Assembly: GCF_000299395.1 (NCBI RefSeq)
Contig: NC_018656.1
Span: forward strand, 1,240,001-1,304,000
From: Candidatus Nitrosopumilus sediminis
Lineage (GTDB): Archaea; Thermoproteota; Nitrososphaeria; Nitrososphaerales; Nitrosopumilaceae
Length of the DNA: 64,000 nt
Direction of reading: 5' to 3'
How positions within the stretch are numbered: the stretch's first letter is position 1; the number at the start of each line of letters is the position of its first letter. Under the pieces are notes generated by a model that saw only the letters and a list, made by a program, of their open reading frames with translations, searched no databases and was not told the origin of the DNA. A program made the position numbers and the translations under genes. Positions 1 through 55,911 of this stretch are shown piece by piece.

Positions 1-1360
1 ATAGGAATTGAGTAACAGTAGAAAATATTCTCTGACTGCCTGGGCTTCCAAGCACCATCCAAAGTTTAGAATTATTGAAAATTAATGCAGGAGATACAGA
101 AGTCCACGGTATAGCATTAGGTCTAATGTAAAAGGGATGATTTGGGTTAGTAAATTCAAATGCAGACATGTAATTGTTGTATAAAAATCCCAACCCATCA
201 GCTGCTGCTTTAGAACCATAGGCAAGTTCGATAGATTGAGTGATACCTACAGCATTTCCCTCATCATCCATAGTTGATAGATGTGTTGTATCTTCACCAC
301 CAAAATCAGGATCAATCATGGGCAATGTGGCATCCATAGAATTATGAATTGAATCAGCCATCTGTTTTGCAAAGGATCTTTGGAGATGTATTTTTTCCAC
401 AATTTGATCATATGTGTGTCGATTAAATGGTCGCTGAACTCGATGTAAGAATGCTTTTCTGAAGGTTTCTGCAACAAAATGATATGAGCTAGGTTTTGAG
501 CTACGCAAAAATTTGGAAGGGAGATGATTAAGCATCATGAGTGTAAGTAACAAAGTTCTTCCAGCTGCAGGGGGAGGTAGTGTTACAACAGTTAAATGTC
601 TATATTTTCTGCTAATAGGTTTTCGAATTAATGGTTCTGGTATGTATGACAAATCTTCTTCCTGAATTAGACCTCTATTATTTTTCATATCAAGAGCAAT
701 TTTTTTTGCAATTTCACCATGATAGAAAATTTGATATCCATAATCTGAAATCATGCCAAGCGTTGCAGCTAGATCTTTTTGAACGAATCTATCTCCAACA
801 TCATATGGAACAACACCATCTTTTAAGAAATATTTCGCACCTGATTTAGATTTGATTGAAAGAAAATTTTTTAGTTCTCTTTCTTGTAAGTCATGTTGGA
901 GTTGGGTAATTTTGTATCCTTTTTTGGCAATGTGAATTGATGGTGCAACTATTTTTTGCCATTCCAATTTACCGTATCTTTCATGTAGAAATCCAATTAG
1001 AGCCAAAGTGCTTGGAACTGTGGTTGCTTTGTACCCCAGACGACGATTTTTTGTCTTTGTGTAAGCTGATGAATTTGCCAAAGAAGGAGAACGACTAGAG
1101 CCATCAATTGCGTATGATTTTCCATTAACATGAATAATTCCCATAGATTGGCCTCCAATTCCAGAAGCTTGAGGTTCACACACACCTAATGCAAGGGCTG
1201 TTGCACATGCTGCATCAATTGCATTGCCTCCTTTTTTGAGCATTTCAACTCCTGCCTTTGTTGCATCAGGAAATGCTGATGACACCATACCTCTTTTTGC
1301 AACGGAGCATTTCTTGTTAGAAGTAGCTTTGAATGATTTTTCTATTTGTTCAAGCTTCAA
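1..1360 (-). CDS. ggt: Gamma-glutamyltransferase (3' end beyond window)
   Basis: The reverse strand reads through without a stop from a TTG at 1358-1360 (AGAAGGA ribosome site just upstream) to the window edge, so the C-terminus is missing. The N-terminal region has the family pattern MLKKGGNAIDAACAT followed by GIGGQSMG. The Thr-Thr-His-x-Ser motif that supplies the N-terminal nucleophile threonine of Ntn-hydrolase gamma-glutamyltransferases lies near residue 358 (DTTHLSTMD, codons at about 275-292). The enzyme transfers or hydrolyses gamma-glutamyl groups of peptides; members mature by self-cleavage before that threonine. No signal peptide is evident, so a cytoplasmic form is likely. It follows the K+ channel stop by 15 nt and is probably the last or a late gene of that operon. 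Only a TTG start is available. Confidence 0.88.
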   Translation of the reverse strand, partial: MKLEQIEKSFKATSNKKCSVAKRGMVSSAFPDATKAGVEMLKKGGNAIDAACATALALGVCEPQASGIGGQSMGIIHVNGKSYAIDGSSRSPSLANSSAYTKTKNRRLGYKATTVPSTLALIGFLHERYGKLEWQKIVAPSIHIAKKGYKITQLQHDLQERELKNFLSIKSKSGAKYFLKDGVVPYDVGDRFVQKDLAATLGMISDYGYQIFYHGEIAKKIALDMKNNRGLIQEEDLSYIPEPLIRKPISRKYRHLTVVTLPPPAAGRTLLLTLMMLNHLPSKFLRSSKPSSYHFVAETFRKAFLHRVQRPFNRHTYDQIVEKIHLQRSFAKQMADSIHNSMDATLPMIDPDFGGEDTTHLSTMDDEGNAVGITQSIELAYGSKAAADGLGFLYNNYMSAFEFTNPNHPFYIRPNAIPWTSVSPALIFNNSKLWMVLGSPGSQRIFSTVTQFL

Positions 1361-1375
1361 TTTCCAATTCCTTCT

Positions 1376-2179
1376 TTAATTACGAGATATATCCTTTCCA
1401 CAGTGAGGACAGGTATTGTTATTCTGCATCTTCTTTTTTCTTAGCTCTTCAGTAAATGCAGATGCCATAATCCCTGTAGGGATTGCATAGACAGCAATTC
1501 CAATTACAGCAACACCAGCAGCAATTAATTTCCCAGGCACAGTTACGGGGTAAACATCACCATAACCTATAGTGGTAAGAGTAACAATTCCCCACCACAT
1601 AGATGCAGGAATGCTAGAAAAAGCTTCAGGTTGTACTTCATGTTCGGCATGATACATCAAACTAGATGCAAAAATCAATACAATAAATAAAATAAAAAAT
1701 GCAACTGCTAAGTCCCCTGCCTTTGATTTGAATACATGTCCCAAAGTTTGCATCGGATCAGAATACCTTGCAAGTTTGAAGAGTCTGAACAATCTCAAAA
1801 GTCTAATTATTCTAATGAAGCGAGTATCTGCAACCACAAAAGGTAAGAAGAATGGAAGTATTGCAGCTAAATCAACTAGCATCATAGGAGTGAATACAAA
1901 TCTAATAAAACCTAACTTTGAATTTTGATATTTTGGGTTTAGTTTACAAACCATAATTCTTCCAATGTATTCTGATGTGAAAATAATAATGGAAAATACT
2001 TCAAAAGGAGTAAAGAGATAACCGTATTCATCTAAAACAGATTCTTCTGTTTCAATTATAACTACAATAACATTTACAGTAATCAAAGCGATAATGAAAA
2101 ATTGAAAAGTTTTTGTAACTTTATCATCAGTTGTCCCTTCAAGAATTTCATATGTTCTTTGCAGTGCTCTGTTGCTCAT
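1376..2179 (-). CDS. Voltage-gated potassium channel, six-TM, C-terminal zinc motif
   Basis: 267 aa. Four voltage-sensor helices precede a pore: S4 is arginine/lysine-spaced around residues 120-137 (RFIRIIRLLRLFRLFKLAR), and the K+ selectivity filter TTIGYGD is at about 202-208, followed by S6. This is the KvAP-like archaeal Kv architecture; four subunits would form a K+-selective membrane pore gated by voltage. The tail carries CPHCGKD at about 257-263, only one CxxC pair, so a zinc site would need to form between subunits. It sits between the CorA-like gene (57 nt upstream) and gamma-glutamyltransferase (15 nt downstream) on the same strand. Confidence 0.92.
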   Translation of the reverse strand: MSNRALQRTYEILEGTTDDKVTKTFQFFIIALITVNVIVVIIETEESVLDEYGYLFTPFEVFSIIIFTSEYIGRIMVCKLNPKYQNSKLGFIRFVFTPMMLVDLAAILPFFLPFVVADTRFIRIIRLLRLFRLFKLARYSDPMQTLGHVFKSKAGDLAVAFFILFIVLIFASSLMYHAEHEVQPEAFSSIPASMWWGIVTLTTIGYGDVYPVTVPGKLIAAGVAVIGIAVYAIPTGIMASAFTEELRKKKMQNNNTCPHCGKDISRN

Positions 2180-2236
2180 TGTTTGTACTCAATTTGTTGA
2201 AAGACTAAAAATATAGGTTTTTTACAGAGATTCAAA

Positions 2237-3883
2237 TTAAAGCCATCTCTTTTTCCTAAACCAAGCAATCATAATTCCAGATATTGTTGCCATTGCAATT
2301 AACATTACAAAATAACTTCCTTCCCATTCTAGTTCTGGCACATATGAAAAATTAGTTCCATAGATACCAGCTATGAATGTAATTGGAATGAAAATTGCTG
2401 CAACTATGGTTAAAGTCTTCATTACTTCATTCATACGATTGCTCACACTTGAGAGATAAGTATCGAGCATACCCCCAATTACATCACGTAGTCCTTCAAT
2501 AGAATCAGTGACTTGGATTACGTGATTATAAACATCACGAAGATATGTTCGAGTACCATCAGAAATCAAAATGGTGGAATCTCGTCCCAAATAGTCCACG
2601 ATTTCACGTGCAGGCCAAATGGATTTTCTCAGTGCAATCATCCGTCGCTTTAATGTTTGAATAGTCTGCATAGTCTCAGGTGTAGGATTTTTCATCAATT
2701 CTTCTTCTATGTTTTCTGTCATGTCACCGACTTTTTCAATAACTAGAAAATAACTGTCAATAATTGCATCAATTATTGCATATGTAAGATAATCACTTTG
2801 AAGTTTTCGAATACTTCCTGAGCTGTTTCTTAATCTTTTTCTAATTTGATCAAAAAAGTCTGCACTATGTTCTTGAAAAGTCAAAACATGGTTTTGAGCT
2901 AAAATAACAGATACTTGTTCTAATTCTAGTTTGCCTGTTTCATCATCATAATGAGGCATCTTTAACATAATCAAGACATAGTTATCAAATACCTCGATGT
3001 ATGGTCTTAATTCAGTATTCATTATGTTTGACTGATGGAGTGCATGGATGTCAAAATTATCCCCAAATTTTTTAATGATTTCTGCATCATGAACACCAAC
3101 CACATTAATCCAAGATACATTTGGTTTGTTTTTAGATTCTAAACATTCTTCAATTGTGGCATTGCCTATTTCGTTGATATTTTTCTCATCATATTCAATT
3201 AAATTCATTGTGACTTGATCAACTTTTCTTTCTCCAACATGAATTAGAGCTCCAGGACGTTGTCCAATTGTATCAACCAAAGTTGTTTTCTGGGTTTTAG
3301 TTTTATTCATAATGCGTGTAATACCTGCAATATCTTGCAATCCAAGATCTTTTGTGATTTCTTTAACTTTGGATGTCTTGCTTGCTACCCCCACAATAAT
3401 AAAGCCAGCAATTATTGAAAAAATAACACTAACAGTTAACGGGGTAAAATCACCTATTATTGCAGCCTGATAAATAGCAGTTACATCAGTTTTTGATCCC
3501 GTTTCAACAATGAATCCAATTATTGTATCAAGTAAAAAGAACAAGAAAGAGATTGAGGCACCAATAATTATAGCAGTTACAACAGTAATCTTTGGTGGAA
3601 TTTCAATATCTTTTTCACCTTTGTAAGGAGACAAATATTTTTTGTATCTAATTATTAACAACGCCATCACAGTGATAATAATTGTTGAGATAATCCACCA
3701 ACCTACAAGCCATGGTCCTTGATGTGAATCAATTTGTTCAACTCCAGATATAAGATCTTGGATATTTCCTGTTAGAGGTAATGAAAATAAAGATGTTGCA
3801 ATTCCAATAACAATTTGATACAAAAAAGCAAAAGTAAATCCATAAACAAGCCTGTTTATGACTATGCCAATTTTATCTCTCAT
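2237..3883 (-). CDS. CorA-like divalent-cation transporter with extra N-terminal membrane domain
   Basis: 548 aa, longer than usual CorA proteins (about 320-370 aa). Residues 1-180 hold about four extra hydrophobic segments of unknown role. From about residue 205 the sequence follows the CorA cytoplasmic funnel, with the long stalk helix and two C-terminal TM helices separated by YGTNF near residue 508, in the place of the CorA YGMNF selectivity motif. A Mg2+ or related divalent-cation flux role is therefore inferred; the GTN variant occurs in CorA-like relatives whose ion preference differs. The start lies 5 nt downstream of the stop of a 54-aa ORF, suggesting one transcript. Confidence 0.85.
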   Translation of the reverse strand: MRDKIGIVINRLVYGFTFAFLYQIVIGIATSLFSLPLTGNIQDLISGVEQIDSHQGPWLVGWWIISTIIITVMALLIIRYKKYLSPYKGEKDIEIPPKITVVTAIIIGASISFLFFLLDTIIGFIVETGSKTDVTAIYQAAIIGDFTPLTVSVIFSIIAGFIIVGVASKTSKVKEITKDLGLQDIAGITRIMNKTKTQKTTLVDTIGQRPGALIHVGERKVDQVTMNLIEYDEKNINEIGNATIEECLESKNKPNVSWINVVGVHDAEIIKKFGDNFDIHALHQSNIMNTELRPYIEVFDNYVLIMLKMPHYDDETGKLELEQVSVILAQNHVLTFQEHSADFFDQIRKRLRNSSGSIRKLQSDYLTYAIIDAIIDSYFLVIEKVGDMTENIEEELMKNPTPETMQTIQTLKRRMIALRKSIWPAREIVDYLGRDSTILISDGTRTYLRDVYNHVIQVTDSIEGLRDVIGGMLDTYLSSVSNRMNEVMKTLTIVAAIFIPITFIAGIYGTNFSYVPELEWEGSYFVMLIAMATISGIMIAWFRKKRWL

Positions 3884-8420: not shown

Positions 8421-8879
8421 ATGTTTAAAGTTGAGAACAAGTCCGTAAAAACTATGTCAAGCATTACTGCTGAGAATATTAAAAAATTAGATATTGCATG
8501 TAAGGAATTATCCAACGAAGATAAAATTAGACATGTGGGAGTAATCAATAATCTTGGTAAGTTGATTGCAGGAGGTTTCAAAGCAGGAACATCACCACTC
8601 ATAGATACAGACAAAATTGCCATGACATACATGCAGATGCAATTAGATTTTAAAATGAGGCAAGAGCTAGACGAAGTTCTGGGGCCAATTGACTATATTG
8701 CATCAAGAAGAACAAAACAATTGATTATCAGCGTACCAATAGGTGATAACTTGGTGCTCATTTCAGCAGAGCCTGATGCAGATGATAAAAAAATAATCAA
8801 AAAGGCAGAAGAATTGTTTGATGATATATCGATATCGGAAGTTAATTTAAAAAATAAAAAATTATTTTGTAAGTACTAG
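8421..8879 (+). CDS. Thaumarchaeal small protein, DUF6659/roadblock-like
   Basis: About 152 aa from ATG 8421 (a TTG at 8409 is an alternative). The pattern KIRHVGVINNLGKLIAGGF, followed by a TTKQLIISVPIGDN-like strand and LVLISAEPDADDKKI, is one I associate with a thaumarchaea-specific family (recalled as DUF6659, unverified) with a roadblock/profilin-like alpha-beta fold. Function is unknown; several copies per genome seem common. A decayed relative lies at 57.75-58.13 kb. The 3' end overlaps the convergent secreted-protein gene by 18 nt. Confidence 0.7.
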   Translation: MFKVENKSVKTMSSITAENIKKLDIACKELSNEDKIRHVGVINNLGKLIAGGFKAGTSPLIDTDKIAMTYMQMQLDFKMRQELDEVLGPIDYIASRRTKQLIISVPIGDNLVLISAEPDADDKKIIKKAEELFDDISISEVNLKNKKLFCKY

Positions 8880-9890
8880 AGAGTAGCTTACAGTGAATGG
8901 TTCTGAATTCATCGTATGAAGTGCCAATGCGTTACCTGAGAACTGTGTAGAGCCAGATGCCTTGGTTGGAACTAGAGATAGTGCATAGTATGTTTTACCA
9001 TCTGTAGTCCAGCTTGGTAAACCTATTACCTCACCTTTAGTGAGAGGTCCTATCAAAGTTACAATTTGCACTGGTTCAGATGCATCAAATGTTAGATGAC
9101 CTGAATATGCCTGTTCTCTAGGAGGTAGCAATAGAGCTAGTTGATGGGTTTCATGTCCAACTCCTGGATCTTGTTCAGAAGTTATGGTTTTTCTAAAGAC
9201 TTTTTGTCCATCAGTGATGTTCTCAGTATATGTTACAGAGTAGCTTACAGTGAATGGTTCTGAATTCTTTGTATGAATTGCAATGGCATTTCCTGAGAAT
9301 TGCCATACACCTGCAGCAGTTTCTTTATCTACAAATGTTAAACCAAACTTTGTTTTGCCATCAGTACTCCAAACTTTTTGTCCTTTGACATTACTATCTT
9401 TTAATGGACCATGCAATGCTACAAGTTGAACATTTTCAGATGCAGTATATGTCATAAATCCACGATATACTTTGTCAGAAGGTGGTAACACTATAGCTAG
9501 TTGGTGGTTTTCATGTCCTTGACCTGGATCTTGAACAGATGTTAAAACACCAGTAACAGTTTTTGGTACTTTTAGGGTTGCTACAGACTTTGCAGCTTTC
9601 ATTGTTTCAGATTTTGTATCTTTCTTTGGAACTTCTTTAGCTTTTTCTGCTGTTTCTGCTTTCTTTTCAGATTTTACTTGTTCTTTTTTCTTTCCTTCAA
9701 CAGGTTTTTTCTCTGTTACAGGTTCAGAACATAATCTATCGCCACAGACTTTGTTTGAATTAATCTTATTTGTGAATGTACCTTTAGATTTGGCAGCATC
9801 AACAGATTGGATCACTCCCATAGGTCCTGCGATAGTTCCTGTTAATAGAACAGCAACTGCAAAAATTGCAATTAAAGTTGTTATAGTCAT
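8862..9890 (-). CDS. Secreted protein with two GHExHQLA domains
   Basis: 342 aa with a signal-type N-terminus (ITTLIAIFAVAVLLTGTIAG), a lysine/glutamate-rich linker (about 60-105) and two copies of a domain of about 110 residues. Each copy begins with QDPGxGHExHQLA (about 122-134 and 240-252), continues with a Y-x-G...ASExVQ-x-V-x-L-x-GPL strand and ends with F-x-GNA-x-A-x-HT...PF. The conserved H, E, H and late H residues could form a metal site. Two cysteines in CGDRLC occur before the linker. A single-domain relative is at 52.08 kb. Function unknown; outside the membrane by inference. Confidence 0.8.
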   Translation of the reverse strand: MTITTLIAIFAVAVLLTGTIAGPMGVIQSVDAAKSKGTFTNKINSNKVCGDRLCSEPVTEKKPVEGKKKEQVKSEKKAETAEKAKEVPKKDTKSETMKAAKSVATLKVPKTVTGVLTSVQDPGQGHENHQLAIVLPPSDKVYRGFMTYTASENVQLVALHGPLKDSNVKGQKVWSTDGKTKFGLTFVDKETAAGVWQFSGNAIAIHTKNSEPFTVSYSVTYTENITDGQKVFRKTITSEQDPGVGHETHQLALLLPPREQAYSGHLTFDASEPVQIVTLIGPLTKGEVIGLPSWTTDGKTYYALSLVPTKASGSTQFSGNALALHTMNSEPFTVSYSLVLTK

Positions 9891-9997: not shown

Positions 9998-11329
9998 TTA
10001 GCGATATACTTGCAAAATTATTTTATGCAGTTCTGCTTTTGTAGAGAGTAATTCTTTACGTAGTGCATCTATCTTCAGAGTAGATTCAGAAATAGTATTA
10101 TCACGTTCTTCTTTACTAATTGAACTTGAAGTTAAAACAGAATTGAGTTTGTCCTGTTCTATTTTCATATCATCTTTCAAAGAATTAATCTTATTTTCTA
10201 GTGTCACTATAATTTCAGATGATTGTGTCTGACCTGCTAATTTAATTAAGATTGAATTAGAATTAAGTGCCGTAATTTTTCCAGTTGAAATCTGGCATGA
10301 ATTAGGAGAAATCTTTTCTGCCATCTGTATTGTCTTCTTCGATATATCAGAAGATAATTCCACTATTGGGATTCTTAAACCAGTATTATCTGTGCAAATC
10401 TCAAAAATCATATTATATGCCATAGAATTTTCAGGCTTATCTTCTGGTTGTACAAGTGCCTCATGAACCGATATAATTTCAGAGACTACACCGTCAACAC
10501 TTACACCTGTTATGGATTTACCTTTTGGAATTGGTGCAATATCACTGGTTGGACTTAAGTTTAGAAACAACAAATATTTTTGAAGTTCATATCGTACATT
10601 TTTTAGTTCATCTCTAATCTCGGTTATTTTTTTGTGAATTGCAGAGACTTTTTTTGCTCGATCAGTACTTGGTGGCTCATTATTAATAGATGACAATTTT
10701 TCTCTTTGAATAGCAATATCAGATTGTAAAGTGGTAATTTTATTTTCAAGTTCAGTTATCGACTCAGTAATTCCACCATGATTTAGTAATTTAGCAGATA
10801 TACTATTAGGATCAGATGCTTTTACTAGAGATGCAGTAGTATAGCAAGACTTTAGATAGACATCTCGGAGTTTTACAGATTTTGTTTCAGAATCAGATAT
10901 AATAATTACCTCAGGAGATTTAATTTTTTCATCTAGTGCACAGATTTTGAAAACATAGTTGAAAGTGTTAATTTTTGGAAAAGATTCTACTACGCCAGGC
11001 TTTTTGTATTGCTTAGTTGTTGCCATGTGAGTAAGTGTACCTATTGGTTTTGATTGTTCATCAGATTCTTCCATTATTTTAGAAACTGGAAGTGCATATC
11101 CTCTTTCAACTAACAGATCAACAATTTCAGAAGTAACACATGCGGCATCCCCATTAGAAGTACGAATTATTTTTACAAGATGTTCTTTACAGACTACTTC
11201 CTTTGGAGTAAAATTAAGATCCATCTGATCTTTTGGAGGAATTACATCTGCAAACACAAAATTTGATGTAGTTACAGTAGATGCAAGTAGTACAAAGATC
11301 AAAAAGAATACAGAGAAAAATTTAGTCAA
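9998..11329 (-). CDS. Secreted coiled-coil protein, paralogue 1
   Basis: 443 aa. A signal peptide (FFSVFFLIFVLLAST) precedes DVIPPKDQM and the motif CKEHLVKIIRTSNGDAACV, a pattern frequent in thaumarchaeal exported proteins. The rest is an internal duplication: a beta-rich segment (FNYVFKICALD...DSETKSVKL) followed by a coiled coil, then a second beta segment (YNMIFEICTDN...) and second coiled coil. Each coiled coil starts with LENKI. The neighbour at 11378 shares the whole architecture, so the pair arose by tandem duplication. Cell-surface or envelope role is inferred; no enzyme motif seen. Confidence 0.75.
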   Translation of the reverse strand: MTKFFSVFFLIFVLLASTVTTSNFVFADVIPPKDQMDLNFTPKEVVCKEHLVKIIRTSNGDAACVTSEIVDLLVERGYALPVSKIMEESDEQSKPIGTLTHMATTKQYKKPGVVESFPKINTFNYVFKICALDEKIKSPEVIIISDSETKSVKLRDVYLKSCYTTASLVKASDPNSISAKLLNHGGITESITELENKITTLQSDIAIQREKLSSINNEPPSTDRAKKVSAIHKKITEIRDELKNVRYELQKYLLFLNLSPTSDIAPIPKGKSITGVSVDGVVSEIISVHEALVQPEDKPENSMAYNMIFEICTDNTGLRIPIVELSSDISKKTIQMAEKISPNSCQISTGKITALNSNSILIKLAGQTQSSEIIVTLENKINSLKDDMKIEQDKLNSVLTSSSISKEERDNTISESTLKIDALRKELLSTKAELHKIILQVYR

Positions 11330-11377: not shown

Positions 11378-12703
11378 TCATGAAGCTTTAAGCAATAATG
11401 AATTGAGTTTTACTCTATTTTCTAAAATATCATTACGCAATTCACTGATTTGTTCTGTTAGTTTTAGAGCAAGTGGTTCAGTGGCAGAATCGAGTTTTTT
11501 AGAAACTAAATCTCCCAGATTACTTCTCATATCAGCTAGAGAAGCCTCCATTTCTTTTATCTGAGTCTCTAAAGATTTGATTTGTGAGGAAACCGCAGAA
11601 TTTCCACTTATTGTTGGAACGATAGATTCAGAATCTAGTGCATTAATTCTTGTAATGCCAACCTGACATGAGTTTGGAATAATTCTATCAATTAATTTCA
11701 CATCAACGGATTCAGAATCTGAAGATACTGTGATTATAGGCAACCTAATACTTTGGGCACCAGCACATGCTTCAAAAACCACATTGAATCTTTTAAGTTC
11801 AGGATTATTAGAGCCAGTTGGAGATACACTATCAGTTACTGAGATCAGACTGGTACTCATCCCATCAAGGGGTTTTCCTGTAATGGATTTTGGTAAATCA
11901 ATTTTTGATGCTTTGACATTTGGTGGGACATACAAAACCATCAGATATCTTCTAAGTTGGTCTTGTAATCCTTTCAATTCTTTTTTCATAGATGCTATAT
12001 TATCCAAATCTTCATTTTTTGGGGATTGTTTATCAGATGTTGGAATTTTTTGTTTAGCAGTTGCAATTTTGCTTTTTAGATCAGCTATTTGAGTTTCAAG
12101 CGTAGAAATTTTTTCTGAAATTCCTCCTTTGTTTAGAAGGGTTGCAGCAATAGAGTTAGGATCTGCAGCTTTGATGTTTACAGAACTTGTGTAACATGAA
12201 CCAGGTTTTAATGCACTTGCTAACTTTACACTCTTTGTTTCACTATCAGAAGTTACATAGATTTCAGGAGCTTTTACTAATTTTGTAGTACCACAAGCAT
12301 CAAAGATATAGGCGTATCCAGAAATACTGGAAGATTTCGCACCAGAACTTGTTGAAAGTTGTTTCAAAGTTGCAATTTTTGTAATTGTTCCAGCGGATTC
12401 ACCTTTCATCAATTTTTTTGATTTGATTTCTTCTATTTTTTGCTCAGAGAGTTTTTTTGCCCATCCAGTCTTAGCTAATTTTTCAGCAGTAGATGGTTTT
12501 ACACATGAAGCTTTATCTGAAGAACTTTTTATTATTTTTACTAGCCCTTCTGCGCAGATTATTTGATCATTTGTAAAATCAAATTTCATCTGTTGTCTTG
12601 GACTAATTACATCTGCAAAAGATTGAAAAGGCAGCGTTCCTGAAATCAATACAATTCCAAGTAATACTGCAAATACAGGGATTAGATTCACAACAATATT
12701 CAT
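11378..12703 (-). CDS. Secreted coiled-coil protein, paralogue 2
   Basis: 441 aa, same layout as its downstream neighbour: signal peptide (VFAVLLGIVLISGTLPF), DVISPRQQM, CAEGLVKIIKSSSDKASCV, then two units of beta segment plus coiled coil (LETQIADLKSKIA and LETQIKEMEASLADM). Alternating cysteines in each beta segment (DACGTTK...GSCYT; EACAGAQ...NSCQV) suggest disulfides outside the cell. Spacing of 48 nt to the paralogue suggests cotranscription. Function unknown; perhaps an envelope-spacing or surface-binding protein. Confidence 0.75.
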   Translation of the reverse strand: MNIVVNLIPVFAVLLGIVLISGTLPFQSFADVISPRQQMKFDFTNDQIICAEGLVKIIKSSSDKASCVKPSTAEKLAKTGWAKKLSEQKIEEIKSKKLMKGESAGTITKIATLKQLSTSSGAKSSSISGYAYIFDACGTTKLVKAPEIYVTSDSETKSVKLASALKPGSCYTSSVNIKAADPNSIAATLLNKGGISEKISTLETQIADLKSKIATAKQKIPTSDKQSPKNEDLDNIASMKKELKGLQDQLRRYLMVLYVPPNVKASKIDLPKSITGKPLDGMSTSLISVTDSVSPTGSNNPELKRFNVVFEACAGAQSIRLPIITVSSDSESVDVKLIDRIIPNSCQVGITRINALDSESIVPTISGNSAVSSQIKSLETQIKEMEASLADMRSNLGDLVSKKLDSATEPLALKLTEQISELRNDILENRVKLNSLLLKAS

Positions 12704-27739: not shown

Positions 27740-28927
27740 TTACTCTTCTACAGGATCTAAATCATCAGATTCGACTTCTACTGTAGCCTCTACCTCAGGT
27801 GTTTCTACTGTAGCCTCTACCTCAGGTGTTTCTACTGTAGCCTCTACCTCAGGTGTTTCTACTGTAGCCTCTACCTCAGGTGTTTCTACTGTAGCCTCTA
27901 CCTCAGGTGTTTTTGCCTTTTTGGTAGTTGCTTTTTTGGTAGTTTTTTTCGTCTTTTTCTCAGCGTCTTCTGGATCTATAACACCTGCTTCACCTAGAGC
28001 AAAGATTACTTCCTCTTCAGGATGATGAGGACTATCTACCATTCTAGCAATTCGTTTCTTACCTGATTTCTTAAAGTAGATTCTGTATGTACTTGTATGT
28101 GCAACTACATTTCCACCAATTGGACGAGTTGGATCACCAAAGAAGACATCAGGTGATGCCATAACTTGGTTTGTTGCAATTGCAGCACAGTTGTATGTTT
28201 CTGCAATTCTTGACAACAAATGAACAAAATGATTTAGTTTTTGTTGTCTTACTGATAGTGTTCCTCTTCCAAGATATTCAGCACGGAACAATCCTACTGC
28301 AGAATCTGCAATAATTAATTTAACATTGTTTTCTTCGATTACAGGACCAGCTTCTTCTAGAATTAGTACTTGGTGTGCACTGTTATATGCACGAGCTACT
28401 ATGATATTATCTAAAACTTTTTCAGGATCCATGTCATGAGCTTGAGCAATAGATACAATTCTTTCAGGTCTGAAAGTGTTTTCAGTATCAATGTATAATA
28501 CAGAGCCTTCAAGACCACCTTCTTCTTTGCTTTTTTGAACCATTACAGACATTGTATGAGCAAATTGTGTTTTACCACAACCGAACTCACCATAAACTTC
28601 TGTTAGGGCCTGAGTCTCTATACCTCCATCAAATAACGTATCAAGACAATTTGTACCAGTTGTAATTTTACCAATACTTTGTCGGTGTTTGTAAATTTCA
28701 GTTGCACTTGTAAAATGTTTGGCAATTAATCCACCTTCAACTAAATGTTGTCGGGCTTTATTGACAATTTTTTCAGCAGTATCCTTTTCCATTCCAGTTA
28801 TTTCTGCAATTTCAACAGGACCTCTAACGATGAGGTCCATGACGTTGTGGACACCTGCATCGGATAATTTTCTTGTAGTTACAGGACCTACGCCCTCTAA
28901 ACTATCTAATCTTAAATCTTCTACCAT
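27740..28927 (-). CDS. radA: RadA recombinase with repetitive acidic tail
   Basis: 395 aa. N-terminal helix-hairpin-helix (LEGVGPVTTRKLSDAGV), Walker A GEFGCGKTQ at 113-121, Walker B IADSAVGLF near 205-215, and the conserved RQQKLNHFVHLLSRIAE loop. Forms filaments on single-stranded DNA and catalyses strand exchange. RadA is normally about 320-330 aa; here about 70 extra residues follow, a lysine-rich stretch (KKTKKTTKKATTKKAK) and five TPEVEATVE repeats ending DDLDPVEE. The tail is probably disordered. A leaderless promoter is seen. Confidence 0.96.
   Translation of the reverse strand: MVEDLRLDSLEGVGPVTTRKLSDAGVHNVMDLIVRGPVEIAEITGMEKDTAEKIVNKARQHLVEGGLIAKHFTSATEIYKHRQSIGKITTGTNCLDTLFDGGIETQALTEVYGEFGCGKTQFAHTMSVMVQKSKEEGGLEGSVLYIDTENTFRPERIVSIAQAHDMDPEKVLDNIIVARAYNSAHQVLILEEAGPVIEENNVKLIIADSAVGLFRAEYLGRGTLSVRQQKLNHFVHLLSRIAETYNCAAIATNQVMASPDVFFGDPTRPIGGNVVAHTSTYRIYFKKSGKKRIARMVDSPHHPEEEVIFALGEAGVIDPEDAEKKTKKTTKKATTKKAKTPEVEATVETPEVEATVETPEVEATVETPEVEATVETPEVEATVEVESDDLDPVEE
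27777..27911. repeat. 27-bp tandem repeat, five copies, in radA 3' end
   Basis: Five identical 27-bp units, each coding TPEVEATVE on the minus strand, run without interruption. Perfect identity at nucleotide level implies recent expansion, and the copy number is likely to vary between strains. Confidence 0.95.
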
Positions 28928-32802: not shown

Positions 32803-34101
32803 ATGCATTCTGTAATATTAACAGAGTTAGGAATCTCAGTTTTCAATGATGAAAAACTAGACAAAGCATTTGCTTTCTCAAATCCTGTTAAAGAATATCT
32901 TTTAGTGAAAAATAAAGAATCCAAATTAAATGAACTTGTAAATTATTTAGCATCTACTCAGAGAGGATTTTCTGTAAGTGATGAATCATTACTTGCAATT
33001 CTAAAAAAATATTCAATTGATTGTCATTTGATGGATTCTGCAGAATTAGATAGAGTCCAATCTACAAAACCACAAATTATCGTGGATTCAGGTTTTGCTT
33101 CTAATTTGCAAGATACACTTGGAAAACTAAGAGAGTTTGCTTTAGGATTTTCATCTTCAAAAGTTACCGAAGTCTCAGAAAGCCCAGATCTTCATATAAT
33201 TCAAGCAATTAATTCTCTAGATGAAATCGACAAGATTGCAAATGGATTGAGTTCAAGACTCAGAGAATGGTATGGATTGCATTTTCCAGAATTAGACAAC
33301 ATAATTGATAGTATTAACGGATATGCACAGATTGTAATGGCAGGTAAACGAGAATCATTAACTAAACAAATTTTTGAAGATGCAGGTTTTCCTGAATCAA
33401 AAGTAGAAATGTTATCATTAATTTCTTCAAAAAGTAGAGGGGGAGATATTTCAGATATCAATTTGGCAATTGTGCAATCAATCGCAAAACAAGTTTTAGA
33501 CTTTCACGAATTGCGTAAGAAACTCGAGGAACATGTTGAAAAAGAGATGCAAGAAATTGCACCAAATCTTTCAGCAATTCTTGGAACTGCAGTTGGTGCA
33601 AGAATTTTAGGAAGAGCTGGTAGTCTTAAAAAAATGGCATCACTTCCTGCCAGCACAATACAAGTGCTAGGAGCTGAAAAAGCATTATTCAGATCATTGA
33701 AAACAGGTTCTCAACCCCCAAAACACGGATTGTTATTCCAACATGCAATGGTTCATGCAGCTCCTAGATGGCAAAGAGGAAAAATTGCACGTGCAGTTGC
33801 TGCAAAAGCAGTGATTGCTGCTAGAGTTGATGTATACGGTGAGGGATTAAATCAAACTCTACTTGAAAAACTCAACATAAGAGTCGATGAGATAGGTAAA
33901 AAATACGAGAATCCTACTGAAAAAGACATCAGACCACCTCCATCATTTAGAAGAGAAGGAAGTTTTAGAGACAGTCCAAGAAGAGACAGTAGCTTTCTTT
34001 GCTGCTTTCTTTGCAGGTTTAGCATCAGCTTTCTTTGCTGCTTTCTTTGCAGGTTTAGCATCAGCTTTCTTTGCTGCTTTCTTTGCAGGTTTAGCATCTA
34101 A
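32803..34101 (+). CDS. Nop5/Nop56-58, C/D-box snoRNP core protein
   Basis: 432 aa. Standard Nop domain elements: REWYGLHFPELDNII, NLSAILGTAVGARILGRAG, SLKKMASLPASTIQVLGAEK, LFQHAMVHAAPRWQRGKIAR. Links L7Ae and fibrillarin on box C/D RNAs that guide 2'-O-methylation. Length to about residue 395 is normal; the remainder (FLCCFLCRFSI three times) is odd: it is the antisense of repeats in the minus-strand lysine-rich gene, so the natural end may have moved into the neighbour. Confidence 0.9.
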   Translation: MHSVILTELGISVFNDEKLDKAFAFSNPVKEYLLVKNKESKLNELVNYLASTQRGFSVSDESLLAILKKYSIDCHLMDSAELDRVQSTKPQIIVDSGFASNLQDTLGKLREFALGFSSSKVTEVSESPDLHIIQAINSLDEIDKIANGLSSRLREWYGLHFPELDNIIDSINGYAQIVMAGKRESLTKQIFEDAGFPESKVEMLSLISSKSRGGDISDINLAIVQSIAKQVLDFHELRKKLEEHVEKEMQEIAPNLSAILGTAVGARILGRAGSLKKMASLPASTIQVLGAEKALFRSLKTGSQPPKHGLLFQHAMVHAAPRWQRGKIARAVAAKAVIAARVDVYGEGLNQTLLEKLNIRVDEIGKKYENPTEKDIRPPPSFRREGSFRDSPRRDSSFLCCFLCRFSISFLCCFLCRFSISFLCCFLCRFSI

Positions 34102-42991: not shown

Positions 42992-43515
42992 TATCTTAAT
43001 TCCTCCGTTGTAAGTTGTGGTGTTTTACCTAAGATCATGTTTCTAACTTTAACCATCTTTCTTGCCAACATGAATCCTGCACCAGACATGCAACTTCCAA
43101 TTATTACATGTAGTATACTAGAATCTTGTTGTGGTGCCACTAGCATTACATATGCAAATCCGCCAATCATTAACATAATACCAAAAGCTGCAAACAGTGC
43201 CATCATTACGGGGACTCTTGAAGGAACTGGAGGCAACAGAGCAGCTTTTGATGAAGATTCAGTAAAATCAAGATCTTTGCAAACATGACAACAGCGATGA
43301 CGTTGTTTATTTTCCCAAGTCGTAGTTAAGAAAAAGAATTCCTGATGGCATGAGTCACAGGATCTTTTAGGAAGGGTAATTTTTCCATGATCATCAAAGT
43401 CTTGACCTATTTTTTCCATGCAGCCCTTACAAAAATATCCATGAATATGCCATTGTTTTTGGAAATTATATTTTTTCCATCCTAGCGTTACATTACAACC
43501 GGTACAAGAAGTCAT
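42991..43515 (-). CDS. Zinc-finger membrane protein
   Basis: 174 aa. N-terminal half has CTGCNVTLG, YFCKGCMEK, RSCDSCHQEF and HRCCHVCKD, four CxxC pairs that likely make two zinc ribbons, then two TM helices (VMMALFAAFGIMLMIGGFAY; LHVIIGSCMSGAGFMLARK). Sits between the SSS symporter (4-nt overlap) and UspA (1-nt overlap), so is translationally linked; perhaps a regulator of the transporter. Confidence 0.78.
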   Translation of the reverse strand: MTSCTGCNVTLGWKKYNFQKQWHIHGYFCKGCMEKIGQDFDDHGKITLPKRSCDSCHQEFFFLTTTWENKQRHRCCHVCKDLDFTESSSKAALLPPVPSRVPVMMALFAAFGIMLMIGGFAYVMLVAPQQDSSILHVIIGSCMSGAGFMLARKMVKVRNMILGKTPQLTTEELR

Positions 43516-49999: not shown

Positions 50000-50926
50000 T
50001 TGAATAAACTGGAATATTACACACCGGATGACATACCAAAAGAAATCCAGGCATATGAGACCAAAGTAGAACAATTAGGAGTTGGAAAATCAGGAAAAGT
50101 AGGCATTCTTGATTTAGAACTTCAAACAGATAATGAAGGCAAGACAATTGTTACAAAACAATTTTCTCAAGTTCCATTACAAATACAACGAGCTCTATAT
50201 CCTGAAAGATCACTTCCTAAAATGGCATATCTTTATGTGATTTCACCATCTGGGGGGATTTTACAAGGAGATAGATACAGGACAGATGTCGTATTAAAGA
50301 ACAAGGCCATTGCTCACATGACAACTCAAGGTGCGACTAGAATCTACAGCATGAACACAAATTCTGCATCACAAATTCTAAACATTACAGTTGATGAGGA
50401 CTGCTATTTTGAATACATCCCTGATCAAATTATTCCATACAAAAACTCTAGATATTATCAAAAAGTAAATCTCAATGTTCATAACAATTCCACTTTGATT
50501 TATTCAGAAATTTTAACGCCAGGAAGAGTTGCCATGAAGGAGTCTTTTGAATACGACATATGTTATCTTAGAACACATTGTAAAGACCAAAATAAAAAAA
50601 TCAGATTTTTAGAAAATACAAAAATTGAACCAAAAAAGATGAGAGTTGAAGATTTTGGAGTATTAGGGGAGTACGAAATAGTTGGAACAGTTTACATCTT
50701 GACTAGAAAAGATAACGTGAATGAATTAGAAAACAATCTTAATGAATACATTAGAAATTCAGATAGTGTTTCTGTTGGAACATCTATTCTTCCAGACGAA
50801 TCAGGAATAATAATTAGGGTTTTAGGAAATAAAACAGATAGTGTCTTTGATGTGATTTTCAAAATACTTGAAATTAGCAGGAAAAAAATTCTCGGGGCAG
50901 AATTTAGTAAAATAAGAAAAAGTTAG
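50000..50926 (+). CDS. ureD: Urease accessory protein UreD/UreH
   Basis: 308 aa from TTG 50000. Contains YLYVISPSGGILQGDRYRTD, AHMTTQGATRIYSMN, EYIPDQIIPYKNSRYYQ and LTPGRVAMKESFEYD. Scaffold binding UreF/UreG to urease; nickel passage. Starts 3 nt after ureG. Confidence 0.94.
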   Translation: MNKLEYYTPDDIPKEIQAYETKVEQLGVGKSGKVGILDLELQTDNEGKTIVTKQFSQVPLQIQRALYPERSLPKMAYLYVISPSGGILQGDRYRTDVVLKNKAIAHMTTQGATRIYSMNTNSASQILNITVDEDCYFEYIPDQIIPYKNSRYYQKVNLNVHNNSTLIYSEILTPGRVAMKESFEYDICYLRTHCKDQNKKIRFLENTKIEPKKMRVEDFGVLGEYEIVGTVYILTRKDNVNELENNLNEYIRNSDSVSVGTSILPDESGIIIRVLGNKTDSVFDVIFKILEISRKKILGAEFSKIRKS

Positions 50927-50931
50927 AATGA

Positions 50932-51672
50932 TTACAAATTACTCAATATTCCAATTTCAAAGAGGATATTTGCTCCTATGATAAAGCTGATTATAGCTGT
51001 TCCATATCTAAAAAATCGATTAAGGAGAGATACCCTATCAGTCAGCAAAACAGGCAGTCCTATCAAACCACTGATAGCAACCATACCAATAACAGAGCCC
51101 AGCCCAAATAGAAGAATAAAGGTCAGAGCCATCTCCATATTGTCAAGAGTTGTAGCAGCTAATGCAATCAAACTTCCACTTCCGGCCAATCCATGAATCA
51201 GACCAATCAGGTATGATTTGTGTTCATGTTTGTGATCGTCGTCGTTGTGTTCATGAGCATCAAAATGTAGATGTCCATCAGAATGTTGATGTGGATGTAT
51301 ATGTTGAATCTTGGATTTTTTTTTCCAGATTGCAGTAATTCCTAAAAATATCAGCATTACACCTACCATTAATTCAAGACCAGTGAAGATCTCAGTAGTT
51401 ATATTGACTGTAAAGAAATATGCAAAAAATCCAATTGCTACAAGTGTTGTAGTATGTCCTGCACCCCAAAAAATTCCTACAAGTGATGATTTTGTAAATG
51501 CAGTTTTTAGTTTATTTTTTATTCCATTTTTAGACTTTCTTTTGAATAATTGTGTTCCAACTGCTGCTATATGATCAGGCTCAAATGCATGTTCGATTCC
51601 AACCATTAATCCCAATCCCATGATTAGAGCAGGGGTAAAATCACCAATGGAATAAATTATTTCTTCAAACAA
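50932..51672 (-). CDS. NiCoT-type nickel/cobalt transporter with His-rich loop
   Basis: 246 aa, six or seven TM helices. The H-x4-D-H signature is visible as HAFEPDHIAAV in TM2. A loop of about 35 residues rich in His (HIHPHQHSDGHLHFDAHEHN) could buffer metal. Supplies nickel to urease by context: convergent with ureD, 5 nt apart. Confidence 0.88.
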   Translation of the reverse strand: MFEEIIYSIGDFTPALIMGLGLMVGIEHAFEPDHIAAVGTQLFKRKSKNGIKNKLKTAFTKSSLVGIFWGAGHTTTLVAIGFFAYFFTVNITTEIFTGLELMVGVMLIFLGITAIWKKKSKIQHIHPHQHSDGHLHFDAHEHNDDDHKHEHKSYLIGLIHGLAGSGSLIALAATTLDNMEMALTFILLFGLGSVIGMVAISGLIGLPVLLTDRVSLLNRFFRYGTAIISFIIGANILFEIGILSNL

Positions 51673-52079: not shown

Positions 52080-53153
52080 ATGACATATGACAAAGTCAAA
52101 ATCGGTTTTCTCATGACAATACTCTCTATCTCTTTGACATCTATTGTACTTGCTGAATCTTTTGCAGAAGAAAATAATCTTAGTCAAGAACAAGAACGCC
52201 AAAACGCAATTGAACAACAAACTAGCTTGTTCTCAAATAATCCTATATTTGGAAAAAAAATTGCCATGGAGGGATATGATAGGTTGATTTCACAGGTGGA
52301 TCCTGGCATAGGACATGAAAATCATCAGCTAGCAGTGATAATCCCTATTAGTGATAAAGAATATACTGGAACTTTATACTATTCTGCATCTGAACCTGTT
52401 CAGCTTGTGTCACTTAGAGGTCCACTGGAACCTGGGGAAGAGAAAGGGAAATTCATTTGGACAACAGATGGAAATACAAACTATGAAATTACTCTGATCA
52501 ACGAGTATAGTTCCTCTGGGGAATGGAATTTTGTTGGGAATGCTCTTGCAGTGCACACATTCAAAAATACTCCATTTGTGATAGACTACAAAGTAGACTA
52601 TGAAGAAGTAAGCGAGTCATTAACACTTCCACTCAACAGTCTAAATGATGTCAACATTATGACAGAATTTAATTTTGATTCAGGTACTGTGAAGATAGAT
52701 AGTTTTGATGTGTTCAAACAAGTAAGTGGATTTGGCAAGGTTCAACCTGTTGTTAATCTACAAGGAATTGTAGGAATTGACAAAAGTATCCTATACAGAG
52801 CTGCAGATGCTGAATTTAATGTAGGTACAGGTCCATTTGGATTAGATCATAAGTTCTCAGAGTTTGGAATGTCAGTGTATCTTGAACAAGGAGATATGCC
52901 AATAAGAAAGATAACCTATAGGGAATGTGACATTACGAACTACTCAATAGATACTCTGTATGACAATGATTACAGCTATAACAGAGCCTCTGTTTTTGTG
53001 ATCGTAGATAATTTTGAGATAACCTGTGCAGGAATGCAACCATATCACTATGATTATCAGAAATACATTGATGAGTATGGAGTGGATGCAGTCATGAAAA
53101 TGAAAAACATGAAGATGAGCCCAAAAACACATAATGATTATGGCATAGATTGA
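52080..53153 (+). CDS. Secreted protein with one GHExHQLA domain and a second beta-rich domain
   Basis: 357 aa. Signal peptide (LMTILSISLTSIVLAESFA). Residues about 75-190 hold one GHExHQLA domain (QVDPGIGHENHQLAVIIPIS; SASEPVQLVSLRGPL; FVGNALAVHTFKNTPF), same as the pair in the 8862-9890 protein. The remaining 160 residues form a beta-rich domain with three cysteines (ECDITNY, FEITCAGMQPY). Function unknown, outside the cell by inference. Confidence 0.78.
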   Translation: MTYDKVKIGFLMTILSISLTSIVLAESFAEENNLSQEQERQNAIEQQTSLFSNNPIFGKKIAMEGYDRLISQVDPGIGHENHQLAVIIPISDKEYTGTLYYSASEPVQLVSLRGPLEPGEEKGKFIWTTDGNTNYEITLINEYSSSGEWNFVGNALAVHTFKNTPFVIDYKVDYEEVSESLTLPLNSLNDVNIMTEFNFDSGTVKIDSFDVFKQVSGFGKVQPVVNLQGIVGIDKSILYRAADAEFNVGTGPFGLDHKFSEFGMSVYLEQGDMPIRKITYRECDITNYSIDTLYDNDYSYNRASVFVIVDNFEITCAGMQPYHYDYQKYIDEYGVDAVMKMKNMKMSPKTHNDYGID

Positions 53154-53237: not shown

Positions 53238-53633
53238 ATGATGATTCAGATTAAATTTGTTGTTCAAAATAATAATTTTACAAAGACAAAAAAAATTCAA
53301 TTTTGTAAAAATCATGAAAAAAATCTTGAAATAATGTATGGAATTATTAAAGAATCGATTGACAGAAAAGAGAAAAATGATTTAGAGCAACTAATGATGA
53401 TTTGTTGTTTTCATATGGTAAAAGAGATTAGAGAAAATACAACCACAAGAATTATTCAAAATAAATTGATAAAAGAATTGTTTAAACATCAAAGTATAAT
53501 GCAAATTTTTAAAGATATTAAGAATATGTCCATAGAGGCCAAAATAGACAATTTTCCAAAAAAAGTGCTACACTTTTCACCTAAAAATAGAGATTTTATG
53601 CCTATTCTAGCAGGACTACAGGTTTTGAAGTGA
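53238..53633 (+). CDS. Unknown protein, 131 aa
   Basis: Begins MMIQIKFVVQNNNFTKTKKI; helical, lysine/isoleucine/asparagine-rich, with two cysteines in LMMICCFHMVKE. No recognised family. Its 3' end overlaps the convergent SSS-UspA gene by 32 nt. AT-rich even for this genome, so could be acquired or spurious; the long uninterrupted frame and the ATGATG start favour a gene. Confidence 0.5.
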   Translation: MMIQIKFVVQNNNFTKTKKIQFCKNHEKNLEIMYGIIKESIDRKEKNDLEQLMMICCFHMVKEIRENTTTRIIQNKLIKELFKHQSIMQIFKDIKNMSIEAKIDNFPKKVLHFSPKNRDFMPILAGLQVLK

Positions 53634-55911
53634 GTTTGAGTACTTTTTGTGTAACATTACCCAAGTTTGAAGTAGATTTTCCTATACCTTTTTTGCTCAT
53701 AATTATCATATCAATCTTGAGCTTGTCTGCAAGTTCTGTAATTTTTTCAGCAGGATCTCCCAATTTGACAATACGTTTGTAATCATTGATTTGTTTAGGT
53801 ACAACTACACTTCTAAGAATTAATCTACCTTCTTCTTGAATCTGAGATGCTAATTCTTCGTCGATATTTTCTTCATTTTCATCAGTCCATTCTATTACAT
53901 GTAACAAATAGATCCTTACTTTGGCAGCCCCTCTGAAAAGATAATTAGCATGATAAAGGGATTTCAATGATCTTGCAGACCCATCTATAGGAACTAAAAT
54001 TTTCATCACAGGTGAATCATTTCCAGAAAAATGCGAATAATCAGATTGTTCCATCATGTCTGAATCCATATTTGCTTTGTGAAAAACTTCACTGATATTT
54101 TTCCTAGCCTCAATTAATGGCAGAAATATTATGATTCCTGCTGCACTAAACGCCCAAATTATTGCAAGCCAAATCCAAAGATGGAATGATTGCTCCTCAA
54201 AGACAAATTCAGTTAGATAGAATGATGCAGGCCAGACAATTACAAGAAAAACAGATATTGAAAAACCAGCTCTTTTACAAAATTTTAGAGAGCGTTGAAG
54301 AAATTCCTCATCAGTATCATGTTTTAACATGGAACGGACCTTGTCATCAACAACAAGGATTTTTTGTTTCATGATATGAAAATCAAAGTTTTCAGGTTTT
54401 ATCATACTTCCAACAAGCGTAATGCCCAAGCCAGTAGTAATTGATACAATATTTCCAATCAAAAGAGGTAAGAGATTTCCAGTTGAAGAAAGAGTAATTT
54501 CTCCATACATCGAATCAGCAGACAAAAGCCATGATGAAATACCACAACCAAGTCCTATAATGGCAGCAGAGGTTGCGGCATACTTGTTGGTTTTCTTCCA
54601 CAAGATAGAAAAGGAGATAGGAGCTACTGCAGAACCAATCAGAATTCCCATCATAAGATAAACATATTGTAAACTAAAGCCGGAATGAAATAACAGTGAT
54701 GCTAGTAATCCCATGCCTATTCCAAATCCCAGAATGGTGAATCGAGAAATTTTTATCAATTCACGACCTGATGAAGATGGTTTTAGATACGTACGAAAAA
54801 CATCATAGGTAACAAGAGATGAGACGCTGACTAGTTGGGATGAGCCTGCAGCAGTAACTGCCGTAAAGATGATTGTAAGAAGAAGTATGGCTCCGAAATC
54901 CCCCATAAGATTTGATGCTGCAGTAGATGCAACCAAGCCCAACTCAATCTCATTTTCTGTTAAAGTGACTCCAGTAGCTATCGCTGCTAATCCAAGTGTA
55001 GTAGCAAGGGTAAATGGAATCGCAAACCAAGCTAAACCTCCCAAAATAAACCCCCCAGTGGCAGCCTTTGGTCTAGAAGCAATAGCTCTCTGCCAATAAG
55101 ATTGATCTACAAATACTGTTCCAAAGTTTCCTACGATGTTAATTATACCAAATATTAGAGCACCCATAGACGCTAATGTCAGATATGTTCCAAATGCATT
55201 TCCTTCAACAGGTTTTAGAATGGATGCCTGAGTTAATTTTTCATACATTCCAGAGATTCCACCAATTTCAGGAGTGGCAAAATAAATGACAGTTACAAAG
55301 ATTAGTACCACTACAAAAATTAAAGCAGCATTGAGATATTCTGCAAAAAATGTTGCCTTTAGACCACCAAAAATTGTATAAAGAATTATTCCAACAGGTA
55401 TAAGAAATGCAGCTAGTGTAATGTCGATTCCAGTTAAAGAATTGATTACCGCTGCTCCACCTAACACAAGCATAGCAGTTACAATGGTATTTGTCATCAA
55501 TGCAAAAAATAGAAAAACTTTGTGAGAATGCTTTCCAAATCTAACATAGATCATTTCAGGAAAAGTGTGAGTCATTGGCGCTTTTCTTTTTAATTCAAGT
55601 GCAAGAATTGAAAACAAAATTACCTGAATTGATGCTCCTGCTGCATACCAAAAAGAACCTCCCAATCCAAATTCATATGTCACAGTAGAAGATTGTAAAA
55701 GGGTTGCAGCCCATGTCCAAGCAGAGACAATAGATGATGCAATTAACCCAGTTTTGATGGTTCGTCCTGCAGTATAGAACCATTCAGATGTTTTTCTAGT
55801 ACCAAGCCATTTTGTTTCAGCCTTTACCATTAATGTGACTGATAATGCCATGATCAGTCCAACTCCAATTAATATGATATATCCGATATTTTCAGACAGA
55901 ATAGAAGGCAA
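53602..55911 (-). CDS. SSS-family symporter fused to a C-terminal UspA domain
   Basis: 769 aa from TTG 55911. Residues 1-600 are an SSS symporter closely like the one at 43512 (WFYTAGRTIKTGLIASSIVS; IVGNFGTVFVDQSYWQRAIA; IFTAVTAAGSSQLVSVSSLV). From about 625 the sequence is a UspA domain: MKILVPIDGSARSLKSLYHA, then GDPAEKITELADKLKIDMII, and MSKKGIGKSTSNLGNVTQKV. The ATP-binding Gly pattern of UspA is only partly kept. Role: solute (urea or amino compound) uptake with built-in nucleotide or stress sensing, by inference. Confidence 0.88.
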   Translation of the reverse strand: MPSILSENIGYIILIGVGLIMALSVTLMVKAETKWLGTRKTSEWFYTAGRTIKTGLIASSIVSAWTWAATLLQSSTVTYEFGLGGSFWYAAGASIQVILFSILALELKRKAPMTHTFPEMIYVRFGKHSHKVFLFFALMTNTIVTAMLVLGGAAVINSLTGIDITLAAFLIPVGIILYTIFGGLKATFFAEYLNAALIFVVVLIFVTVIYFATPEIGGISGMYEKLTQASILKPVEGNAFGTYLTLASMGALIFGIINIVGNFGTVFVDQSYWQRAIASRPKAATGGFILGGLAWFAIPFTLATTLGLAAIATGVTLTENEIELGLVASTAASNLMGDFGAILLLTIIFTAVTAAGSSQLVSVSSLVTYDVFRTYLKPSSSGRELIKISRFTILGFGIGMGLLASLLFHSGFSLQYVYLMMGILIGSAVAPISFSILWKKTNKYAATSAAIIGLGCGISSWLLSADSMYGEITLSSTGNLLPLLIGNIVSITTGLGITLVGSMIKPENFDFHIMKQKILVVDDKVRSMLKHDTDEEFLQRSLKFCKRAGFSISVFLVIVWPASFYLTEFVFEEQSFHLWIWLAIIWAFSAAGIIIFLPLIEARKNISEVFHKANMDSDMMEQSDYSHFSGNDSPVMKILVPIDGSARSLKSLYHANYLFRGAAKVRIYLLHVIEWTDENEENIDEELASQIQEEGRLILRSVVVPKQINDYKRIVKLGDPAEKITELADKLKIDMIIMSKKGIGKSTSNLGNVTQKVLKLTSKPVVLLE

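Follow-up and report, generated by a model that had tools for sequence, protein, structure and literature searches.

Domain copies in the window and in the genome

The 64,000-nucleotide stretch of DNA analysed here (the window) contains two genes that share a domain of about 108 amino acids. Gene P1 (8862..9890, minus strand) encodes 342 residues with an export-like N-terminus followed by a CGDRLC motif (9729..9746, minus strand), a Lys/Glu-rich linker and two tandem domains, the C-terminal end lying 3 residues past the second domain. The pattern CGDx[LI]C recurred in 36 of 97 distinct domain-bearing ORFs, a biased sample (loci L009–L089, L125–L134 and L136, and the window) in which some ORFs are cut at contig ends. 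Copy A of the domain spans P1 residues 112–221 (9228..9557, minus strand) with His126, His129 and His206, and copy B residues 222–342 (8865..9227, minus strand) with His246, His249 and His325. Gene P2 (52080..53153, plus strand) encodes 357 residues and consists of an export-like N-terminus, a single domain copy C (residues 65–175; 52272..52604, plus strand; His79, His82 and His159) and a C-terminal sequence of ~180 residues with no Pfam match. These coordinates, and the count of two copies in one protein and one in the other, agree with an earlier note on this DNA. Export of both proteins is likely from their N-terminal hydrophobic segments, judged by eye, which is in line with the earlier placement of a site outside the cell.

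Alignment of the three copies (122 columns) contained 41 invariant columns. The blocks ASExVQxVxLxGPL and GNAxAxHT..PF were present in copies A, B and C as had been described, and the motif reported as QDPGxGHExHQLA was common to all three from the DPG onwards; its leading Q was not, copy C reading QVDPGIGHENHQLA with V before DPG. When copy A was searched against the whole genome with tblastn, copies B and C were recovered with E values of 1.8e-35 and 2.5e-34, respectively, so that their likeness is not due to chance. Genome-wide (one contig, 1,690,905 bases) this search gave eight copies in five genes (E 8e-73 to 4e-30), namely P1 (two copies), P2 (one), genes at 1,088 kb and 1,061 kb (two each) and a gene at 1,571 kb (one). 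The earlier note, which covered the window alone, undercounted the copies.

The C-terminal part of P2 (~180 residues; 52638-53150, plus strand), searched with phmmer among 1,729 ORFs, matched its own copy, locus L088 and, weakly, repeats in locus L050. The latter repeats lie at 675-2252 (minus strand) of that locus.

Family searches and predicted fold

Pfam searches with P1 and P2 produced zero matches at E ≤ 10, hence neither protein is assigned to cupredoxins, cupins or PF24298. An NCBIfam search with both proteins gave a single match, which scored 12.8 bits where the cut-off is 122, and a profile of the eight copies aligned to PDB chain sequences matched only HtpG (E 0.98, chance level). 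The claim that no named family shows this pattern was thus borne out. Titles and opening abstract lines of the papers listed on copper in ammonia-oxidizing archaea (AOA), S-layers and related subjects (including PMC12153357 and PMC9038741; supplementary files aside) held no description of the domain. Judged by these sequence searches, the family was previously unnamed and is in neither Pfam nor NCBIfam.

AlphaFold2 models were obtained for the A-B tandem (49 tandem sequences; pLDDT 93.0, pTM 0.86) and for copy C (96 sequences; pLDDT 94.0, pTM 0.84). DSSP assigned eight strands to domain B, and six elements each to A and C, in which two neighbouring pairs run together. The domain is therefore a confidently predicted beta-sandwich; its strand order and its structural neighbours lead us to read it as a jelly roll of eight strands. 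The best structural match of the tandem was Ena2A (Z 8.2; 3.1 Å over 94 residues). Copy C matched Ena2A (Z 7.9; 2.8 Å, 90 residues), 7a02 (Z 7.7; 2.4 Å, 86 residues), PirA (Z 7.6), GOLD (Z 7.2) and CBM29 (Z 6.2), and Cry-type jelly rolls were also among its neighbours alongside PirA; Z values under 8 may, in such a search, mean only a common arrangement of strands. With Foldseek the tandem gave six matches at E ≤ 0.001 (viral coat proteins, vicilins, a complement protein and AerE), all with TM of 0.25 or less, and copy C gave zero at this threshold in the PDB and in a viral library. Cupin-type folds were frequent among the weaker matches of copy C, with E of 1.6e-3 or worse and query-normalised TM of about 0.23 to 0.34. 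CorA/MopE was not among the fold matches listed for either query. The structural relatives of the modelled domain show general resemblance only, and none is clear.

Conservation and joint loss of the histidines

Two sets of 198 and 223 distinct copies were compared, identical copies being counted once and those shorter than 85 residues (one set) or 80 residues (the other) excluded. In the profile numbering used below, the HxxH motif corresponds to H14, E15 and H17, and the His of the later AxH motif to H94. Among the 198 copies, H14 was conserved in 191, E15 in 187, H17 in 192 and H94 in 193; Trp62 was conserved in 93%. In the 223-copy set, H17 was kept in 212 copies, 209 of which also kept H94, and of the three exceptions two came from truncated ORFs, while the remaining one, L133, was placed differently in two alignments. 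Of the 11 copies that had lost H17, nine had lost H94 and two had kept it; the HxxH segment was wholly unaligned in three of the 11. In the six H17-less copies of the smaller set, H14 was gone from all six and H94 from five, while S6, D9, Y30, G32, S39, F86 and F101 were kept in every one. Leu72 (91% conserved) was lost from all six, as consistently as the histidines.

Similarity-weighted coupling was computed over long-range pairs of columns that are at least 90% conserved. Across the 198 copies the H17-H94 pair ranked first of 503 (phi 0.89), H14-H94 fourth and E15-H94 only 169th. With divergent copies included (223 copies, 363 pairs), Gln44-Asp65 came first, H17-H94 second, H14-H94 twelfth and E15-H94 96th; the fact that Gln44-Asp65 outranks H17-H94 here suggests that part of the coupling reflects divergent subfamilies.

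The Glu was replaced in 16 copies that keep both H17 and H94. H14 was retained in eight of these; in the other eight it had changed along with the Glu, to Gln, Asn or Pro, so that the first His is dispensable. These 16 replacements and the coupling rank of 169/503, compared with rank 1 for H17, speak against the Glu as a ligand, and it was rejected in that role. On the evidence of conservation, H17 and H94 are the dependable pair, with H14 accompanying them in most copies and the Glu expendable. The earlier proposal of a metal site built from conserved His and Glu is accordingly supported for the histidines, which behave like a site in that the second and later His are lost together and the first His partly with them, and is not supported for the Glu.

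In the AlphaFold2 model strand 24-29 directly follows the HxxH motif, and strand 96-101 has H94 at its end. In a canonical jelly roll these two strands (C and H) are neighbours and pair, which would bring the histidines together. From the strand order and the co-loss we infer that the histidines may be in contact.

Lineage range

A pattern scan of one genome per bacterial or archaeal species returned 221 matches, 155 of which encode relatives of the domain; the 78 loci kept of these 155 were all thaumarchaeal. Among 398 genomes from the phylum, the domain was found in 70 and archaeal AmoA in 73, all 70 lying within the 73, i.e. 70/73 genomes with AmoA compared with 0/325 without it. The 73 genomes represent three families, and a fourth family (G026) also has both AmoA and the domain. 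Ammonia-oxidizing archaea form one clade, and the match between domain and AmoA is therefore a lineage signature rather than independent proof of function.

Several AmoA-positive genomes had no domain: G148, G234 and G393 (97-99% complete), G011 (96%) and G023 (95%), and the less complete G003 (82%) and G008 (78%). A broader profile at E ≤ 10 still produced zero matches in the five near-complete genomes; four positive-control genomes matched it and nine AmoA-negative genomes did not. The domain is hence not essential, and its candidacy as a universal hydroxylamine-oxidizing part was lowered by the same five genomes. In viral contigs 65 pattern matches were seen, with zero confirmed by tblastn, and plasmids gave zero tblastn matches with copy A at E ≤ 0.01.

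Gene neighbourhoods

The tandem-domain gene at 1,088 kb of this genome begins 32 bases after a 1706-aa ORF, whose product aligns with the solved cell-surface protein 8c8k along almost all of its length (1452 bits); we take 8c8k to be the S-layer protein of N. maritimus. At nine further loci from other genomes, some of which may be one species seen twice, a tandem-type gene follows, on the same strand, either an S-layer gene or a homologue of that gene's C-terminal end, its open frame starting after 12-58 bases; at a tenth (L037) the distance is 174 bases. The S-layer neighbour is full length in L028, is ~400 aa long and matches only residues from about 1334 onwards in L030, L058, L087 and L037, and runs off the end of the locus in L101, L103, L108, L112 and L139. 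Stand-alone ~400-aa homologues of the S-layer C-terminal end just before a tandem-domain gene are seen, for example, at 4330-5556 of L030 and 4318-5529 of L058.

The S-layer-linked tandem proteins checked (this genome, L028, L030, L103, L112 and L139) all end 3 residues past the last domain. SlaB, as portrayed in excerpts of PMC11153153, is an S-layer anchor with a C-terminal transmembrane domain. The tandem proteins checked do not fit this description; identity with SlaB was rejected on this difference, and they are probably not SlaB. The archaeal ammonia monooxygenase complexome lists S-layer cross-links and unnamed exported proteins (excerpts of PMC10030591).

Other neighbours recurred with particular architectures, counted over 137 loci with any matched gene, many of which have short flanks. 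A plastocyanin-fused gene occurred with citrate-synthase-like and UvrC-like genes in 24 loci from other genomes, and a DUF7482-fused gene with aspartokinase-like and CobJ-like genes in four. P2 had a UreD-like and a DUR3-like gene nearby in three loci, namely the window, L088 and L136. In the window these are a UreD-like gene (50000..50926, plus strand) and a DUR3-like solute-symporter gene (53602..55911, minus strand). A NiCoT/NicO-like gene with a His-rich loop (50932..51672, minus strand) adjoins P2 in the window and in L136, and was unmatched in L088. All of these neighbour-gene names are our presumed assignments.

Some further features of the window were noted in passing. Two similar DUR3-like transporter genes flank the urease genes (53602-55911 and 43512-45515, both minus strand), the first with a C-terminal UspA-like domain by eye. 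Upstream of P1 and on its strand lie genes for two similar export-like proteins (9998-11329 and 11378-12703, minus strand), relatives of which are found near some other domain genes. Inspection by eye also pointed to a NirK-like multicopper oxidase that carries an additional plastocyanin-type domain at its C-terminus (58513-59847, minus strand) and to a RadA-like protein with a repeated acidic tail of TVETPEVEA repeats (27740-28927, minus strand). The ORF at 32803-34101 has an unusual C-terminal tail, which was set aside because on inspection it seems to be an overlap with a Lys/Ala-rich gene that runs the other way. A published copper-limitation motif of N. viennensis, searched in six other genomes, gave three matches versus four with the reversed pattern and was uninformative.

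Fused partners and domain tree

At E ≤ 1e-5, PF00127 plastocyanin was present in 28 of the 97 domain-bearing ORFs; the remaining 69 had no match, some of them being cut. Further fusions at the same threshold were to Kazal_1 (six ORFs), DUF7482 (four) and Cache (two). Seven of the 97 carried CxC-rich segments with 15 to 34 CxC that matched no family and that we read as possibly metallothionein-like. Long segments of this kind, with up to 34 CxC, lie between or around domain copies in some Nitrosopumilus (L031 5491-7929, L032 5308-7311 and L041 5500-6984). Some proteins hold two or three copies of the domain.

In G026 and in a family of genomes that we guess to be Nitrosocaldus-like, the domain heads proteins of ~715 aa with a PF00127-near segment and a YNCE-like propeller. 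In the four such proteins scanned, the PF00127-near segment reached E of 2.5e-4 to 3.5e-3, exceeding the curated cut-off in one of four, and the propeller exceeded its own in three of four. Examples are the ORFs at 3323-5473 of L131 and 160-2298 of L132 (~715 aa), where the cupredoxin-like segment between domain and propeller ends in CxxHPxM.

A midpoint-rooted tree was built from 117 copies picked by group, with several deep supports of only 0.07 to 0.41 and one P1-type gene (L139) labelled SLA. In this tree the copies of Nitrosocaldus type group with those of the DUF7482 group. Copies of the CxC group make up a separate clade (0.94) beside the plastocyanin group (0.41, weak), and the domain of P2 falls among copies fused to plastocyanin (supports 0.78 to 0.90).

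A candidate metal-binding module of the archaeal surface

We tentatively regard the domain as a surface metal-binding module of ammonia-oxidizing archaea, acting outside the membrane and most likely with copper, a reading that is quite possible though somewhat short of probable. The HxxH pair and the later AxH His would most likely come together, because the neighbouring strands C and H of a canonical jelly roll would bring them there, as a candidate histidine site whose metal would most likely be copper. Present in tandem or as single copies, the module could either lie free, below the S-layer or inside it, or be held in place by its N-terminal segment. In the pseudoperiplasm it would take up copper, buffer it or pass it on, presumably to the copper proteins that serve ammonia oxidation and electron transport. 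Its settings in the envelope would comprise a place behind the S-layer gene, fusion to plastocyanin, fusion to CxC-rich segments and, in P2, a copy redeployed beside urease and urea-transport genes. The plastocyanin and CxC-rich fusions and the pairing with S-layer genes point to copper and to the envelope. Ammonia-oxidizing archaea depend heavily on copper (excerpts of PMC7785015).

In favour of the copper module we count the joint loss of the histidines, the AlphaFold2 fold, a Cys-free domain with copper-type partners, the AmoA range, the S-layer pairing and the precedent of CorA. Counting against it are the dispensable first His, the share of the coupling that reflects divergent subfamilies, the equally consistent loss of Leu72, the three H17-less copies with an unaligned HxxH segment, the five domain-less AmoA genomes, the one-clade nature of the AmoA pattern, the mixed record of CorA and the neighbours of P2, which would suit nickel as well as copper.

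The same S-layer pairing would also fit a structural or adhesive module, i.e. an S-layer accessory or a carbohydrate-binding-like subunit in which the histidines brace a loop or hold a structural ion and no metal is supplied. Tandem repetition of the domain and its neighbours in the structural searches, the Ena endospore-appendage subunits (Z 7.9 to 8.2), GOLD (7.2) and CBM29 (6.2), agree with such a role, although these Z values are within the range of a common arrangement. We consider it rather unlikely: the histidines are lost jointly while several fold positions stay, the domain is fused to plastocyanin, cupredoxin-like and CxC-rich parts, and the S-layer-linked tandems end 3 residues past the last domain, unlike SlaB (excerpts of PMC11153153).

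The plastocyanin-type fusions of Nitrosopumilaceae, those with a propeller in Nitrosocaldus-like genomes, and the inferred His site could also be accommodated by a redox enzyme, with a His-ligated type-2-like copper centre that passes electrons to or from the fused type-1 domain and whose substrate would be a small molecule outside the cell, for instance a reactive oxygen or nitrogen species. This is improbable given that 69 of the 97 ORFs (some cut) lack PF00127 at E ≤ 1e-5, that the presence of two and three copies in one protein is easier to reconcile with binding than with catalysis, and that the domain is missing from five near-complete AmoA genomes. We regard as very improbable a reading in which the domain is a new kind of extracellular copper redox centre of ammonia-oxidizing archaea. 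Its jelly-roll His site would then exchange electrons with type-1 copper proteins, whether fused to it or nearby, and take part in the steps that follow ammonia monooxygenase (handling of hydroxylamine, NO or reactive oxygen) in the many lineages that have the domain, a substitute doing so in the few that lack it. For P2 at least, nickel binding in the service of urease has to be weighed too, because P2 lies between UreD-like and DUR3-like genes in its three loci, with a NiCoT-like gene adjoining in two, and tandem genes in L025 and L033 are ~2 kb from a UreD-like gene. Yet the domain of P2 groups with copies fused to plastocyanin (0.78 to 0.90) and the other copies of this genome have no urease gene among their matched neighbours, which leaves the nickel role decidedly improbable.

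For the copper module, the family supplies concrete proteins with which copper capture at the archaeal surface can be tested, since it occurs in 70 of 73 sampled AmoA genomes and none of 325 others, has members joined to copper proteins and has genes next to those of S-layer type. It is also an unannotated family with eight copies in a 1.69-Mb genome, absent from Pfam and NCBIfam.

Comparison with known systems

Plastocyanins and cupredoxins (PF00127, PF13473) are often in the same polypeptide as the domain (PF00127 in 28/97 ORFs), but the domain itself has zero Cys in 161 copies, and P1 and P2 have no Pfam match; it thus lacks a type-1 copper site of its own. DUF7482 (PF24298) is likewise a separate region, occupying residues 192-463 of the ~490-aa L011 orthologue after the domain (residues 42-149). 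Its lineage range is similar (67 of 398 genomes over the cut-off), but it occurs without the domain in L135, and either is also found in genomes without the other.

Cupins and further jelly rolls that bind metal (oxalate oxidase, D-lyxose isomerase and cysteine dioxygenase) have the type of beta fold that we read in the domain and are frequent among its Foldseek matches, but their E values were 1.6e-3 or worse with low TM, and P1 and P2 matched no Pfam family. Ena endospore-appendage subunits gave the highest structural scores, yet at 7 to 10% identity, and no family stands out because PirA (7.6) and GOLD (7.2) score nearly as high.

A close parallel in proposed role is CorA/MopE* of methanotrophs which, according to excerpts of PMC3912023 and PMC11784148, is a copper(I)-binding, beta-rich surface protein of a copper-monooxygenase organism with His ligands, features of which the surface location and the His ligands are candidate ones in the archaeal domain; the MopE* structure is entry 2VOV (excerpts of PMC3912023). 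A role of CorA in S-layer attachment has been proposed (same excerpts of PMC3912023 and PMC11784148), and deletion of corA in M. buryatense left the S-layer intact (excerpts of PMC11784148). The copper site of CorA/MopE* differs in that it consists of two His and a Trp-derived kynurenine (PMC3912023 and PMC11784148, excerpts), whereas the archaeal domain is a repeated unit of ~108 aa with three conserved His. No sequence relationship between the two was found with the one profile tried against PDB sequences (only HtpG, E 0.98). By analogy, the domain of ammonia-oxidizing archaea would resemble CorA in role, not in sequence.
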